Shown here piece by piece: positions 3,512 to 27,321 of a DNA stretch of 28,282 nucleotides. Below the pieces are notes generated by a model, which saw only the letters and a program-made list of their open reading frames with translations, searched no databases and was not told the origin of the DNA. Both the position numbers and the translations under genes were made by a program. Numbering within the stretch: the stretch's first letter is position 1; each line of letters starts with the position of its first letter. Origin of the DNA: a virus; IMG/VR virus record IMGVR_UViG_3300001533_000703, positions 1 through 28,282 of that record. The stretch is one strand, 5' to 3'.

Positions 3512-5983
3512 ATGGGTTTAGATATTTCTTTACATCCAAAGCAATTATTGGCGCTTACAAGCCCTGCTAATGAGATATTATATGGGGGCGCTGTGGGGGG
3601 TGGTAAAGCGTTAGCTTTAGATACCCCCATATTTACACCTGATGGTTGGAAAACCATAGAGACACTGTCTGTGGGTGATCGTGTGTTTGATGAACGAGGT
3701 AAACCTTGCTCTGTAGTAGCAAAATCTGAAGTGTTTACTGACAGACCCACATATGAGATATTTTTTGATAACAAAGAACATTTCAGTATAATTGCTGATG
3801 GTGCGCATGAATGGGTTATTAAAGGTAAAGTACGTACAACAGAAGAGTTATTTAATCGTAAAAAAAGAAGTTCGATTACTGTTGCTGAAGCGTTGGAGCT
3901 TCCTGAAAAAGAATTACCGATACATCCCTATATATTGGGGGCATATGTAAACGGCGATGGTATGCGGGACGTTAAACACCTGAAAGGTATGCACTTGTCT
4001 AAACGGTGCAGTAGCACAGGAATTAATCTGCAAACATTTGAAGACGGTAAATATTACGATAAGGAGAATTGGAAAGCTCTGATAAAAGAACTTGGGATTG
4101 ATGAAGATAAACATATTCCTGAGATATATTTTACTGCGAGCTACGAACAGCGTCTTGAGCTTATACAGGGTATATTTGATGTACGAGGCACTATATTCAG
4201 TGATGCGTATTCCTATAAGCGGTCTGTGGGGCAAGTGGAGATATACACGGACACTGAACAGATGGCAAAGGATATAACATTCTTGTTAGCGTCTCTGGGA
4301 GAGAAAGCGCATTGGTATCCGAGAGTTGTGAATTTGTATGGGCAAAAGTGGCGTGTACGATTTTACCCCACTCTTATTGTGTTTAAATCAAAAAACAGGA
4401 TAAGAATAGAGAACAAAGCGTTAGAGACTACCCCTAATCGTGGTAAGAAATTAACTAAAATAACAAGCATAAAACAGGTACTGTCTCAACCCACTCAATG
4501 TATTCAGGTTGATAGTCCTAGTCATTGTTTTCTTGCCGGTAGATTGCTTGTTCCTACACATAACAGCTTTCTTATGCGTGTGGCGAGTATTATATGGGCT
4601 ATGGAGTGTCCCGGCATACAAATATATCTGTTTCGTCTTACAAGAAAAGAGTTAGATGATAACCATATGGTAGGCAGTGGCGGTTATTATGATTTATTGG
4701 GGGAAGCAGTAAACAGAAAATATGTAAAGATAAATGAGTCCAAACATGAAATACAATTTAGAAATGGCCCCCATGGCACGTTTATAAACGGCAGTATTAT
4801 TCATTTATGCCATTGTCAGCATGAGACTGACAAATATTTGTATCAGGGCGCTGAGATGGCGGTGATGATGATTGATGAGTCAACACACTTTACATGGAGT
4901 AAATATACTTACTTGCGTACTCGTGTGCGTATACCGAAAGGATGGACCCCACCGAAGAGCTTTACTGATAAATGGGGGACTAGCTTTTTTCCAAGAATAC
5001 TTCTTGGGTCAAACCCCGGAGGTATCAGTCATGCGTCACATAGGAAAGAATTTGTAAAAATAGCAAAGCCATTGACAATTGTACAGATGCCTAAGAGCCG
5101 TGGAGGCATGCTCAGGCAATTTATACCGGCTAGGTTAGAGGATAACCCTAGTATAGATAAAGATGAGTATGAGGGGCGTGTTATGGGTGTCGGCAATGAA
5201 GCAGTGGCTCGTATGCTTCTTGAGGGTGATTGGGATGCTGTGGCTGGCGGTATGTTTGATGATGTATGGGATTACCATGTACATATGATAGAACCGTTTG
5301 ATATACCAAGCGAGTGGTATGTTGATCGGTCATTTGACTGGGGGTCTACTGACCCGTTCAGTGTCGGCTGGTGGGCGCAGAGTGACGGCAGTGAAGTGAC
5401 ACTACGCAATGGTGAAAAGGTTACCTACCCGAAAGGAACATTATTCCGGATAGCGGAGTGGTATGGTTGGACGGGTACAGAGAATGAGGGGCTTGGTCTT
5501 ACAGGATATGAGATTGGTCAGGGCATAAAACGCATAGAAGAGACCAATGAGATATTTAAGACGATACCTAAAGTATACCCTGGTCCGGGAGATTCACAGG
5601 CATGGAACAGCAGTCCTAAGCATGATTCTAGTTATCGTTCTACTATACAAGAACTTAACAGCGGTTATTATGGGTCTGACAGGTATAAAATGTTTGATAT
5701 TTTTACAAAAGCAGACAAGACAGAGGGGACACGTGTACGGGGTTGGGACATTCTTAGGACTCTATTGAAAAATTCTACAAAATTTCCTAAAGTAGATAGG
5801 GAATGTTTATTCTTTTTTAATACATGTGAGACACCGGCGAGAATAATTCCGACTGTAATACGACATGAACGGAAAATAGAAGACATAGCGGACAAACAAG
5901 AAGACCATGTACTTGATGAAATACGATATCGAGTACAGCACACAGTTCAGAGAACACGCCGAATAAATACTAGGATAGGGTAA
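3512..5983 (+). CDS. terL: Terminase large subunit, interrupted by an in-frame intein
   Basis: This is the ATPase and nuclease of the DNA packaging motor. The 823-residue precursor contains an intein at residues 33-351. Splicing would leave a 504-residue protein of normal size. Excision rebuilds the Walker A motif GGAVGGGK-S (residues 25-32 joined to S352). Walker B is MAVMMIDE (449-456, D455 and E456). The RNase H-like nuclease has D609 (RSFDWGSTDPF), D694 (YPGPGDSQ) and D802 (VLDEIRY), the expected acidic triad. The start has AAGGA upstream. The stop overlaps the portal start by one base (TAATG). Since the P-loop is split by the insertion, packaging should depend on protein splicing. Confidence 0.95.
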   Translation: MGLDISLHPKQLLALTSPANEILYGGAVGGGKALALDTPIFTPDGWKTIETLSVGDRVFDERGKPCSVVAKSEVFTDRPTYEIFFDNKEHFSIIADGAHEWVIKGKVRTTEELFNRKKRSSITVAEALELPEKELPIHPYILGAYVNGDGMRDVKHLKGMHLSKRCSSTGINLQTFEDGKYYDKENWKALIKELGIDEDKHIPEIYFTASYEQRLELIQGIFDVRGTIFSDAYSYKRSVGQVEIYTDTEQMAKDITFLLASLGEKAHWYPRVVNLYGQKWRVRFYPTLIVFKSKNRIRIENKALETTPNRGKKLTKITSIKQVLSQPTQCIQVDSPSHCFLAGRLLVPTHNSFLMRVASIIWAMECPGIQIYLFRLTRKELDDNHMVGSGGYYDLLGEAVNRKYVKINESKHEIQFRNGPHGTFINGSIIHLCHCQHETDKYLYQGAEMAVMMIDESTHFTWSKYTYLRTRVRIPKGWTPPKSFTDKWGTSFFPRILLGSNPGGISHASHRKEFVKIAKPLTIVQMPKSRGGMLRQFIPARLEDNPSIDKDEYEGRVMGVGNEAVARMLLEGDWDAVAGGMFDDVWDYHVHMIEPFDIPSEWYVDRSFDWGSTDPFSVGWWAQSDGSEVTLRNGEKVTYPKGTLFRIAEWYGWTGTENEGLGLTGYEIGQGIKRIEETNEIFKTIPKVYPGPGDSQAWNSSPKHDSSYRSTIQELNSGYYGSDRYKMFDIFTKADKTEGTRVRGWDILRTLLKNSTKFPKVDRECLFFFNTCETPARIIPTVIRHERKIEDIADKQEDHVLDEIRYRVQHTVQRTRRINTRIG
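3608..4564 (+). mobile_element. Class 3 intein with a degenerate LAGLIDADG endonuclease domain
   Basis: A 319-residue insertion lies between K32 and S352 of the large terminase. The N-terminal splicing block begins with Ala (ALALDTPIFTPDGW) instead of Cys or Ser. The class 3 WCT set is complete: W101 in IADGAHEWV (block B, with H99), C330 in CIQVDSPSHC (block F) and T349 in VPTHN (block G), followed by the terminal N351 and Ser+1. In this class the block F cysteine attacks first and forms a branched intermediate. The homing domain has one intact motif, PYILGAYVNGDG (D149), and a second, IQGIFDVRG, in which Arg225 replaces the catalytic aspartate. Splicing is likely intact, while double-strand cutting is probably lost. 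Confidence 0.9.
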
Positions 5984-7795: not shown

Positions 7796-8698
7796 ATGAA
7801 CAAACCAGAGGTTATTAGTATGCCGTATGATGTAGGTGATGTAAAAAGTGTGCAGAAATTTTTAGGGGAGATGAAAGAAAAGTTTAATTCTATAAATAGT
7901 GTGTTACCGGAAGGGGCTGAGAAGGTAGATTTTGATTCATTCTCTGAATCCTTTTTTAATGCCAATGAAGGCATTTTGAAAAATAGGGATGCTTTGAAGA
8001 CGGAAAAGCTTGCTTTAAACACAAAATTAGAGGAAACAAGCAAGACTTTAAAAGAATATGAAGAGAAAATAGGCTCTATTGACGAAACTTTACCGGACAA
8101 GTATAATAAGACAATTGAAGAATTAAATGCACTCAAAGATTCCGTAAAGGACGGTAGTGTAGACATTGATGTGATAAAAGCCCGCCATGAGGCTGAAAAA
8201 AAGAAGCTCGAGGCTGAAGTTGCTAAATCGTGGGAAGAAAAACTCAATGGTGCATTGGGTGAGGTTGATTCTTATAAGAATGCATCAGAGACTTTTCAGA
8301 ATTTGTATTTTAATACATTAAAGAAGGACAGTCTTGTTGATGACTTGGATAGGATAAAAGTCAATCCAGAGGATAGACCATTAATTTTACAAGCTAATCT
8401 GAGCAGAGCTGAGGTTGCAGAAGATGGTGAAGGCGGTTATGCCGTATTTTACCGCACAGATAAAGGCGAGTTAGTTTCTGGTCAAGAATTTTGGGATAAA
8501 TGGGCTGTTAGCGATCATAACCAAAAGTACATTCTTGCTGAAGAAAATAATGGTGGCGGTGCTTCAGGTGCTCCTTCTAAAGGAAACACATTAAGCAAAC
8601 GTGACCAATTAATTAAGCAGCTGCAAGAATCACAAGACCTTAAAGAAAGACTCCGCCTTACTGAAGAGATTTCTAAACTGAATAAAAACAGTAAATAA
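7796..8698 (+). CDS. Capsid scaffolding protein
   Basis: This 300-residue protein is rich in Lys, Glu and Leu, with long predicted coiled-coil stretches at about residues 65-180 (LNTKLEETSKTLKEYEEKI, ARHEAEKKKLEAEVAKSWEE). It ends with a basic helix (QESQDLKERLRLTEEISK). Composition and position, directly upstream of the major capsid gene, are those of a scaffold that nucleates procapsid assembly and is expelled before packaging. The start is taken at ATG 7796 rather than TTG 7790, since the GGAG/TAGG Shine-Dalgarno is too close to the TTG. A GGAGG site for the capsid gene follows the stop. Confidence 0.8.
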   Translation: MNKPEVISMPYDVGDVKSVQKFLGEMKEKFNSINSVLPEGAEKVDFDSFSESFFNANEGILKNRDALKTEKLALNTKLEETSKTLKEYEEKIGSIDETLPDKYNKTIEELNALKDSVKDGSVDIDVIKARHEAEKKKLEAEVAKSWEEKLNGALGEVDSYKNASETFQNLYFNTLKKDSLVDDLDRIKVNPEDRPLILQANLSRAEVAEDGEGGYAVFYRTDKGELVSGQEFWDKWAVSDHNQKYILAEENNGGGASGAPSKGNTLSKRDQLIKQLQESQDLKERLRLTEEISKLNKNSK

Positions 8699-8715
8699 AC
8701 TTTGGAGGATTTTTT

Positions 8716-9621
8716 ATGGCACAGATTGCTGGTATTACTGATTATTGGAACAGTCCTAACTATGAGGGACTTTTATGGACAGCAGATGCAGTGCCCGGTC
8801 GTGGTACTGGCACTCCTTTCCTTACGATTATGGGCGGGCTGAATGGCGCTAACATGCGCGTCGTCCCTGACTTTGATTATGCTATGACTGCTGAGTATGA
8901 CTTTGCGGCTCCTGCACAGCCGGATATTGATGAGACCGATTCTTTAACCGCTCCTGATGCGGCTTCTCCGGTACTTTCTCAGTCTCGTAATGCGCTGAAT
9001 ATTTATCAGGAAGCAGTTCATGTTTCTTACAAGAAACTGTCTACTGCAAGCCGTATGGCTACTGATGTTGTAGTAGGCTCTGTGGGGTATTGGGCGACTG
9101 ACCTCAGCCGTGAGGAACAGCTTATTGCTGAACGCAAGGCTTATATCATGCAGAAAATTGCTCGTGATGCAAACTATACGTTTATGAATGGTACGTATCA
9201 GCAGTCTGAGAGCAACACGGAGTCTTCTAAGACTCGTGGTGTTATTACTGCTTGTTCTGCCAATGCTACTGCTGCTGGTTCGGTTGAGTTAAGCGAAGAG
9301 CTTATGCAGACTCTTTTTGAGGATGTTGCAGAAAATTCTAGTGGACAGGCTTTTCAGCAGATGCCTATTCTTTTTGTTCCGGCAAAACAGAAATACAATA
9401 TTTCTAAGATTTACGGCAAACAGCCGGATTCTTGGTCTATTGGTGGGGTTAATGTTGAGACCATTATGACTGACTTTGGTCAGGTTGGTGTTATTTATGA
9501 ACCGATGGTTCAGGCGTCTGGTGCTTCTACGGACACCATTGCACTTATCGCAATGAACGTTTGCCGTCCGGTTTTCAACCCTGTTGTAACTAACGAAGGC
9601 GTTGCAGGACTCTTTCTGTAG
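8716..9621 (+). CDS. Major capsid protein (SU10-like), prematurely stopped
   Basis: The 301-residue product has the features of the SU10-type HK97-fold major capsid family: an N-terminal TPFLTIMGGLNG stretch, SLTAPD, IYQEAVHVSYKKLSTASRM, and KIARDANYTFMNGTYQ with TRGVI. It would form the hexamers and pentamers of the shell. The expected C-terminus is missing. An exact 13-base tandem duplication (9608-9633) introduces a TAG at 9619-9621, and the normal continuation (YEDLAKTGAG onward) lies downstream in the +1 frame up to 9754. Without the duplication the protein would have 341 residues. A strong GGAGG site supports the start. Confidence 0.9.
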   Translation: MAQIAGITDYWNSPNYEGLLWTADAVPGRGTGTPFLTIMGGLNGANMRVVPDFDYAMTAEYDFAAPAQPDIDETDSLTAPDAASPVLSQSRNALNIYQEAVHVSYKKLSTASRMATDVVVGSVGYWATDLSREEQLIAERKAYIMQKIARDANYTFMNGTYQQSESNTESSKTRGVITACSANATAAGSVELSEELMQTLFEDVAENSSGQAFQQMPILFVPAKQKYNISKIYGKQPDSWSIGGVNVETIMTDFGQVGVIYEPMVQASGASTDTIALIAMNVCRPVFNPVVTNEGVAGLFL

Positions 9622-9633
9622 ACTCTTTCTGTA
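9608..9633 (+). repeat. 13-bp perfect tandem duplication within the capsid gene
   Basis: GACTCTTTCTGTA at 9608-9620 is repeated exactly at 9621-9633. The junction forms the TAG stop. Reading straight across gives ...GLFL-stop. Deleting either copy restores one continuous frame, GLFLYEDLAKTG. Skipping from CTG 9616-9618 to CTG 9629-9631 would give the same protein. Confidence 0.95.
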
Positions 9634-9754
9634 TGAAGACCTTGCGAAGACCGGTGCTGGGTACAAGGGTCAGTTCTTGGCTCATATGGGCATTGACTAT
9701 GCTAATGAGAAGATGCATGGTAAGATTACTGAGCTTGTTCAGAGCAGAATTTAA
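9632..9754 (+). pseudogene. Displaced C-terminus of the major capsid protein
   Basis: Forty codons in the +1 frame relative to the capsid ORF, ending in TAA at 9752-9754, encode YEDLAKTGAGYKGQFLAHMG followed by IDYANEKMHGKITELVQSRI. This is the expected end of an SU10-type capsid protein, where a YExLAKTG...KGQ...GIDY...MHGKIT pattern closes the fold. It has no start codon or ribosome site of its own at its beginning. It is made only if the ribosome skips 13 bases or shifts frame, or if the duplication is absent in the true genome. Confidence 0.85.
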
Positions 9755-13672: not shown

Positions 13673-14602
13673 ATGGCTTTTAGCAGTGGTGCACAGAGAG
13701 ATTTATATTATGCAGAAGAAGATAGTTATGGGGTACCTGTAACCGGTGGTGCAGACCCCACTGTTACAGAGATAAGGAATACTGAAGATACTATTAGTCT
13801 TTCGCGTGACAATTTTGTCAGCAATGAGAGACGAGGGGACAGAGGTATTCATGACATGCGGTTAGGTAATAAACAACCTGCCGGTGATATAAACTTTGAG
13901 TTTAGTTATGCTTCTTTTGATGATTTTCTTGAGGGGGCATTATGTAGCGATTGGGACGCAGATGTGTTAAAGAAAGGTTCTGTAATACATAGTTACTGTG
14001 TAGAAAAAGTATTCAGTGATTTAGCTACTCCTGAATATCAGTTTTATACCGGTGGAGTAGTCAATGGATTTTCTTTAGACATTAGCCCGAATGGAATGGT
14101 TACGGGCAGTTTTGCTTTCCTGTTTCAGGATGCGGCTAATGGTACTAGTGCATACCATACCGGCGACCCTGTTGATGTGAATACGAACACTCCATTTGAT
14201 ACTTTTACAGGTTCTATTACAGAAAATGATGTAGCTATTGCTACGGTTTCTTCGTTCAACTTCAGTCTTGATAATGGATTTGAGAGAAATTTTGTTGTGA
14301 TGCAGAACAAGGCTCCGCAGGTAACGAGTGGAAAGTCAAATATTACTGGAACCATTACTTTGTACTTTGAAGATAGTGACGAATATAATAAATTTGTAAA
14401 TGAAACTGAATCTTCTCTTACTATTACATTACAGGATTTAGATGGCAATGAATATGAGATTGATCTTCCTAGGATTAAATATACTAGCGCAGAAACTCCG
14501 GTAAACAGCGATGGTGCTATTATTTGTACAATGAATTTTCAGGCGTTGGATGATGCTACCGCAGAGAGTAATATTGTTATTACTCGTACTGATGCAGCAT
14601 AA
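13673..14602 (+). CDS. Major tail tube protein, short paralogue
   Basis: This 309-residue protein has the start AFSSGAQRDLYYAEEDSYGV and the GDINFEFSYASFDDFLEGAL, NGFSLDISPNGMVTGSFAFL and PRIKYTSAETPVNSDGAI blocks of a phage tail tube family. It would polymerise as stacked rings to form the tail tube. It is closely related to the next gene but lacks that gene's extra domain of about 100 residues. The first 41 bases of the two genes are identical. A GGAGG site lies upstream. Which paralogue is the main tube subunit cannot be told from sequence. Confidence 0.8.
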   Translation: MAFSSGAQRDLYYAEEDSYGVPVTGGADPTVTEIRNTEDTISLSRDNFVSNERRGDRGIHDMRLGNKQPAGDINFEFSYASFDDFLEGALCSDWDADVLKKGSVIHSYCVEKVFSDLATPEYQFYTGGVVNGFSLDISPNGMVTGSFAFLFQDAANGTSAYHTGDPVDVNTNTPFDTFTGSITENDVAIATVSSFNFSLDNGFERNFVVMQNKAPQVTSGKSNITGTITLYFEDSDEYNKFVNETESSLTITLQDLDGNEYEIDLPRIKYTSAETPVNSDGAIICTMNFQALDDATAESNIVITRTDAA

Positions 14603-14614
14603 GGAGGGGCATAA

Positions 14615-15850
14615 ATGGCTTTTAGCAGTGGTGCACAGAGAGATTTATATTATGCTATAGAGGACAGCTTTGGTGTTCCTCCGGCAACGCTTGATATGAC
14701 GGAGATACGAAACACTGAAGACACAGTTGTTTTAGCACGAGATAACTTTGTTAGTAATGAACGGCGTGGTGATCGTGGTATTCACGATATGCGCCTTGGT
14801 AACAAACAGCCGGGCGGGGATATCAACTTTGAGTTTAGTTATGCTTCTTTCGATGATTTTATGGCCGCCGCATTGTGTGCTGATTACGACACTTCATTAG
14901 AAGATTTAGATGATGCTTGGGCGGCTCCTTATGCATTAACCGGTACCTCAGCTATAGATGGCATCACCGTTGATGCAACGGCGCAGACGATTACAAGAGC
15001 AACTGGCAGTTGGATAACAGATGGTCTAAGAGTCGGGGATGTTATTACTATAGCAGGCTTTACTGAGGAAGGTCCTCCGGATGAAACGGTGAATAATCAG
15101 ACTACGCAGATAACTGATTTAACGGCTACGGTAATCACAGTATCTTCTTCGACATTAGAGGATACCGCTTCTGCGAGAGATGATATTGAATTTACGACAA
15201 GTGCTACTGAGGTAAAGAAAGGAACCACGGTCACCAGCTTTGCTGTAGAGAAGGTTTTTAGTGATTTAGACACTCCTGAATATCAGTTATATACCGGTGG
15301 TATTATCAATGGTTTCTCATTAGATGTCAGTCCGAACGGTATGGTCACTGGTAGTTTTGCTTTCCTGTTTCAGGATACTGAAAATGGGGACAGCGCATAT
15401 CATGCTGATTTAACGGATGTGAACGACAACAGACCATTTGACAGTTTTACTGGATACATAAATGAAAATGATACGGCTACGTCTGTAGTGAGTTCTTTGA
15501 ATTTTAGTCTTGATAATGGATTTGAGCGTAATTTTGTCCTTATGGAGGACACCTGTCCTCAGATGACTAGCGGTAAATCTAATGTTACGGGTAGCCTGAC
15601 GGCATTCTTTTCTAACAGCACTTTATACAACAAATTTGTAAATGAAACAGAGTCTTCTATTGAGATTGCTTTTCAGGATGACGAGTTGAATGGGTATGTT
15701 ATTACGTTACCAAGAATTAAATATACTAGTGCTGAGACACCGGTTAACAGTGACGGCGCTATTATAAATACCATGAACTTTCAGGCTTTAGATGATTCTA
15801 CTGAATTATCTAATATCATAATTAGGAAACAGCCGAAGATTCCGGCTTAA
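14615..15850 (+). CDS. Tail tube protein, long paralogue with inserted domain
   Basis: The 411-residue protein matches the preceding tail tube protein along its length but has about 102 additional residues after the DYDTS/DWDAD position (roughly residues 95-200). The insert (ITVDATAQTITRATGSWITD, GLRVGDVITIAGF, ITDLTATVITV) is a beta domain often found in tail tube proteins of other phages. It may project from the tube. AAGGAGGGG lies upstream. The two genes are separated by 12 bases, so a tandem duplication followed by gain or loss of the domain is likely. Confidence 0.8.
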   Translation: MAFSSGAQRDLYYAIEDSFGVPPATLDMTEIRNTEDTVVLARDNFVSNERRGDRGIHDMRLGNKQPGGDINFEFSYASFDDFMAAALCADYDTSLEDLDDAWAAPYALTGTSAIDGITVDATAQTITRATGSWITDGLRVGDVITIAGFTEEGPPDETVNNQTTQITDLTATVITVSSSTLEDTASARDDIEFTTSATEVKKGTTVTSFAVEKVFSDLDTPEYQLYTGGIINGFSLDVSPNGMVTGSFAFLFQDTENGDSAYHADLTDVNDNRPFDSFTGYINENDTATSVVSSLNFSLDNGFERNFVLMEDTCPQMTSGKSNVTGSLTAFFSNSTLYNKFVNETESSIEIAFQDDELNGYVITLPRIKYTSAETPVNSDGAIINTMNFQALDDSTELSNIIIRKQPKIPA

Positions 15851-26634: not shown

Positions 26635-27321
26635 ATGGGGTGTATATATGTAATCTCAAATAAAATAAACAATAAGCAATATGTTGGACAAGCTAAGAAT
26701 TTTAAACAGAGAAAACAAAGACATTTATATAATACGTGGAATGATAATAAAAAGACACGTAGTTATCATATGGCTATACATAGGGCTATTCGTAAATATG
26801 GAGAAGATGCTTTTACGTGGGAAATACTTGAGGATAATATTCCTAATGAAAAAATGAATGAATTGGAGATGAAATACATTGCTAAATTAGATACGTTTAA
26901 TTCGGGGTATAACTCAAATACAGGTGGTTCTAGTAGTTTTGGGTACAGGCATGATGCGGAGACTAGAAAACGAATGAGCATTTCTGCAAAAAATAAACCG
27001 CCTGTTAGTGATGCTACAAGAGAAAGATTAAGTAAAGCTAAGAGAGGGCGTACACATTCTAAAGAGACATTAGCAAAGATGCGTGCTGTATTAAACAGTT
27101 CTGAAGTGAAAGCAAGGCGTGTAAATACATTACGTGAGAATAAAAAAGGATGGTTAGCTGTAGATCAATACACCAAAACTGGTGAATTTATCGCTTCATA
27201 TGATAGTTTAGTTATTGCATGTGAGAAAACAGGAGTACATGTATCTTCTATTTGTGATGTATTAAAAGGGCGTTATTTAGCTGCTGGTGGGTTTATATGG
27301 ACATACAAGAATGCTATATAG
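26635..27321 (+). CDS. Free-standing GIY-YIG homing endonuclease
   Basis: The 228-residue protein has the GIY-YIG nuclease (CIYVISN, QYVGQAKNFKQR with R26, and E78 in NELEMKYI), a substitution of Cys for Gly in the first motif, two NUMOD3-type DNA-binding repeats (FGYRHDAETRKRMS, RGRTHSKETLAKMR) and a NUMOD1-like C-terminal helix-turn-helix (SLVIACEKTGVHVSSICDVL). These match segA-like mobile endonucleases that spread into genes lacking the insertion. It starts directly after the J-like stop with GGAGG inside the end of that gene. The host range of its target is unknown, but an adjacent tail gene is the usual target. Confidence 0.9.
   Translation: MGCIYVISNKINNKQYVGQAKNFKQRKQRHLYNTWNDNKKTRSYHMAIHRAIRKYGEDAFTWEILEDNIPNEKMNELEMKYIAKLDTFNSGYNSNTGGSSSFGYRHDAETRKRMSISAKNKPPVSDATRERLSKAKRGRTHSKETLAKMRAVLNSSEVKARRVNTLRENKKGWLAVDQYTKTGEFIASYDSLVIACEKTGVHVSSICDVLKGRYLAAGGFIWTYKNAI

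Follow-up and report, generated by a model that had tools for sequence, protein, structure and literature searches.

A 13-bp tandem duplication interrupts the major capsid gene of a virus record, probably as an accident of replication or assembly

The capsid gene is broken at an exact tandem repeat

The sequence examined was the 28,282-base virus record IMGVR_UViG_3300001533_000703 (hereafter the window), in which GACTCTTTCTGTA is present as two exact head-to-tail copies at positions 9608-9633. The original prediction for this locus had described the repeat and the TAG that it creates at 9619-9621, together with the CTG directly before that stop (9616-9618) and the same CTG 13 bases on; all were found again here, the second CTG lying at 9629-9631. 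The features of the locus, by position in the window, are:

8716-9621, + strand: 5' part of the major capsid protein gene; 301 aa, ending GLFL then TAG; PF17236 SU10_MCP, profile positions 24-251, E 2e-30
9604-9645, + strand: predicted hairpin around the repeat; -11.2 kcal/mol, z -1.68, not exceptional
9608-9620, + strand: first copy of GACTCTTTCTGTA
9619-9621, + strand: TAG formed at the junction of both copies
9621-9633, + strand: second, exact copy of GACTCTTTCTGTA
9632-9754, + strand: +1-frame segment with the last 40 capsid codons and TAA, showing no decay; PF17236 profile positions 258-291

The gene carrying the repeat is, by its profile matches, an SU10-type major capsid gene (PF17236, HK97-fold), and it was also assigned to PHROG 1328 'major head protein'. 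Its two parts match consecutive stretches of the PF17236 profile, with 106.6 bits for residues 31-287 and 24.9 bits for the detached tail, both above the curated cut-off of 24.1 bits. The tail (YEDLAKTGAG...LVQSRI, 40 aa) begins with codon TAT at 9632 and stops at TAA 9752-9754, bearing out the prediction that the missing 40 residues lie intact beyond the stop in the +1 frame. No single open frame here holds the complete HK97 fold, the TAG being codon 302 and the tail lying in the other frame. As the +1 frame is open from 9590 only, about 10 codons are available for a shift. Read-through of the TAG alone would add five residues, one at the TAG itself followed by TLSV, up to a TGA at 9634-9636. 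Stop-codon reassignment was rejected, since among the 20 other genes counted in the window TAG serves as the stop in 6 and TGA in 1, and translation reading TAG would still halt at that TGA. Restart downstream was also rejected, the first usual in-frame starts (TTG 9677 and ATG 9686) lying inside the tail and giving fragments only.

No other exact tandem duplication with a period of at least 10 occurs in the window. Going by base composition, chance would give about 0.001 exact tandem duplications in it with a period of at least 13, and the related contigs (457 kb) contained six with a period of at least 10, just one of these with a period of at least 13. On both counts the repeat must stem from an actual duplication, whether of biological or of technical origin. 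No microhomology was found beyond the repeat's 26 bases, and nothing resembling a transposon footprint was seen at the site apart from the repeat itself.

Related capsid genes are uninterrupted

For the comparison, 82 related capsid genes were gathered from viral contigs, some being near-copies of each other so that they do not represent 82 independent cases. The frame was open across the repeat site in all 82, and none carried the repeat. The closest relatives over the first 301 residues were L009 and L010 (64% identical) and L002 (62%), with the alignments of residues 1-301 to L090 and L009 being gap-free at 64% identity. In L090, bases 8550-9452 correspond to the first part and bases 9453-9572, which follow directly, to the tail, with zero residues gained or lost; the tail is 75% identical to this relative and begins exactly at the first part's end. 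Of the 40 tail codons, 16 are identical to those of L009, 14 differ synonymously and 10 nonsynonymously; the tail still looks coding, so the break is recent. As far as visible, the break also appears to be private to this record.

Whole records of relatives carry one capsid gene each (L002, 90 kb; L003, 75 kb; L009 and L010, about 20 kb each). A second, intact capsid gene was rejected as an explanation, there being none in the window, which is only a part of this genome, and only one in the 90-kb and 75-kb relatives. All other window genes with a counterpart in L089, L090 or L091 aligned without a frame break. Searches of other records with exact 26-mers, in single-copy or two-copy form, gave no match, and a degenerate pattern for the joined peptide, run against viral and genome contigs, likewise found nothing. 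Close-relative patterns detected no relative among genome contigs, phage records yielded no DNA-level relative, and these searches found no same-species record, so that a single-copy form of this very phage was not seen in them.

The missing tail belongs to the core of the predicted fold

An AlphaFold2 model of the intact L009 protein (mean pLDDT 75, pTM 0.73) matched HK97-fold capsids along its length, with Z scores of 19.3 for the Pa223 capsid and 18.4 for the SU10 capsid. Against HK97 gp5 (1ohg; Z 15.6), model residues 29-338 aligned to chain residues 128-383, reaching the C-terminus. On this model the lost tail is core of the fold: the break separates residue 301 from 302, within predicted strand 300-304, and strands 311-323 and 331-336 are lost. 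Losing part of one strand and the last two strands suggests that the 301-residue product should not form a normal capsid subunit.

Recoding across the break

A +1 slip at TTT-C had been predicted to join the two frames with the addition of four residues, and the sequence agrees with this. The shift, unassisted or weakly assisted, could occur by slippage of tRNA-Phe from TTT onto TTC, immediately ahead of CTG TAG, or alternatively at CTG TAG A. Re-pairing from TTT to TTC would be perfect, and UUU is a known +1 site, a few RF2 genes having UUU_U in place of CUU_U (PMC5009743). An in-frame TTT with a C behind it is ordinary, however (36 cases among the window genes counted), and the codon after this TTT is the sense codon CTG, not a stop. 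The AGGA found 3 nt upstream of the TTT is coding sequence that is also present in L002 without any shift, and the downstream structure is not unusual (z +0.72). The +1 product gives a single continuous PF17236 match of 137 bits, against 107 for the truncated protein, and its AlphaFold model keeps the fold, placing the second LFLY copy in the strand and the first in or near a low-confidence loop (residues 297-300 below pLDDT 50). In the loop before this strand the near clade is already 4 residues longer than most family members, and going by the model the product could perhaps fold. Set against this, no relative needs such a shift, and since hundreds of capsid copies are required, a low-efficiency shift would hardly be enough. 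We therefore regard a +1 frameshift as improbable, and nothing supports it as programmed. The capsid frameshifts of Listeria phage PSA (+1) and of T3/T7 (-1) are similar in changing the capsid frame near its 3' end; in those phages, however, the shift adds an extension, so that two capsid products are made (PMC5009743), whereas here the short form is without 40 core residues.

Ribosomes hopping from CTG 9616-9618 to CTG 9629-9631, by programmed or spontaneous bypassing, would make exactly the family-type protein, with neither insertion nor deletion against the relatives. The original prediction had likened this geometry to T4 gene 60, also a phage gene, where take-off and landing codons are identical and UAG follows straight after take-off; short stop-hops between matched codons have moreover been shown in synthetic constructs (PMC5009743). 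The matched CTG codons with TAG after take-off are indeed present, but every codon in the first copy has a twin 13 bases on, as is inevitable in any tandem duplication, so the resemblance weighs little. When 9,991 13-bp duplications were placed by simulation in this phage's genes, a stop arose inside the doubled block in 46%, and 6.7% of all had one immediately following a matched codon. The likeness thus stands as geometry, of a kind that duplication alone produces as a by-product, while the other marks of known bypasses were absent or unremarkable.

Bypassing in gene 60 requires a KKYK-containing nascent-peptide signal and take-off, 5' and 3' stem-loops (PMC5009743, PMC11194080). The 50 residues before the stop contain no lysine here, so there is nothing like a KKYK signal, and no convincing take-off or 5' stem-loop was seen. 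The hairpin at 9604-9645 could pair both repeat copies but its stability is unremarkable (z -1.68), with 14 of 200 shuffles folding as well and with 44-nt windows at least as stable making up 6.5% contig-wide and 18% within the capsid gene; larger folds around the site were ordinary (z -0.79 and +0.72). The original prediction had itself noted that no known bypass stimulators were seen. Gene 60 differs further in having a 50-nt gap rather than a 13-nt step, and the gap here repeats coding sequence exactly and in tandem and is not conserved, occurring in 0 of the 82 relatives. The bypass elements of Magnusiomyces capitatus mitochondria are likewise short frame-breaking inserts in which landing often matches take-off, but 81 of them occur in one genome under relaxed mitochondrial decoding (PMC5009743), against a single insert here in 28 kb whose genes are otherwise intact.

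A programmed bypass signal is not supported, and programmed bypassing is highly unlikely, although by analogy a trace of hop product is possible. It is equally hard to credit that ribosomes hop the 13 nt between the two CTG codons with an efficiency sufficient for capsids, a fresh duplication being tolerated in that way. Were this so, a bacteriophage would provide a natural case of a stop-hop over a very short distance, with take-off and landing codons matched, and gene-60-like gaps may then start as simple duplications. The more general caution is that matched codons one repeat apart are present in every tandem duplication of a length not divisible by three, frequently together with a stop; the layout of matched codons and a stop alone should not be taken for bypassing.

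Origin of the duplication

An accident of replication or assembly, rather than a recoding element, very probably explains the break. The simpler alternative within the original prediction, plain duplication by slippage, whether in a defective copy or in an assembly, is accordingly favoured, with 82 of 82 relatives unbroken. Recoding signals were sought and no convincing one was found. Short insertions commonly arise by duplication. The best explanation, to which we give a probability of about 0.48, is that the sequenced phage DNA recently underwent a 13-bp tandem duplication, not programmed and most simply a replication error; on this reading the change would lie in the DNA itself rather than having been made in assembly. 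Such a duplication would have caused the +1 frame change, the junction TAG and a major capsid protein 40 residues short, and a genome copy carrying it would be defective unless a coinfecting intact phage helps or one repeat copy is lost. The probability given, like the gradings of the rival explanations, is a judgement and not a computed value.

A dead major capsid gene should not, however, dominate a phage population. A family search of the near relatives found neither a tyrosine integrase nor a resolvase-type recombinase, so a silent decaying prophage is not an obvious carrier, and this makes an assembly error almost as likely. A decayed prophage as such was rejected, with no other broken gene among those compared and relatives without tyrosine integrase or resolvase families. 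If the repeat is an assembly or sequencing artefact, which we consider a serious possibility falling somewhat short of even odds, one copy would be natural and the second would derive from unmerged overlapping ends or chimeric reads. It would fit this that the capsid gene, essential and single-copy in relatives, is the sole broken gene among those comparable, and that the near relatives seem to be without integrases. The duplication is also exact and without microhomology, a character that suits mutation and artefact alike. On the other hand, 26 bases are readily crossed by ordinary reads, a 13-base duplication is untypical as a read error, and exact tandem duplications are rare in the related contigs (the six of period at least 10 in 457 kb).

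Other observations in the window and its relatives

In one capsid relative (L088, 1128-2054) the GKGxFFYEELAKTGA segment is unusually replaced by DNLVADAAAGSDVLWVPTAITAA, with the frame still open.

The terminase large subunit gene of the window (3512-5983) contains a 319-aa intein-like insertion (window 3608-4564) at the Walker A motif, with bounds GGGK|ALALDTP...LVPTHN|S. By its motifs this is a candidate intein, and the L090 terminase aligns end to end. A second in-frame terminase insertion of about 1 kb, also intein-like and absent from the window, was seen in L089 (about 3949-5006; GGISH|C...SGN|S). A GIY-YIG endonuclease with NUMOD motifs, probably a homing endonuclease, is encoded at 26635-27321, directly after the long tail protein gene. 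The products of the adjacent genes at 13673-14602 and 14615-15850 closely resemble each other and are probably paralogous tail proteins, with an extra internal stretch in the second. Positions 1-800 hold no obvious gene over a long stretch and include a degenerate tandem array at 412-484.
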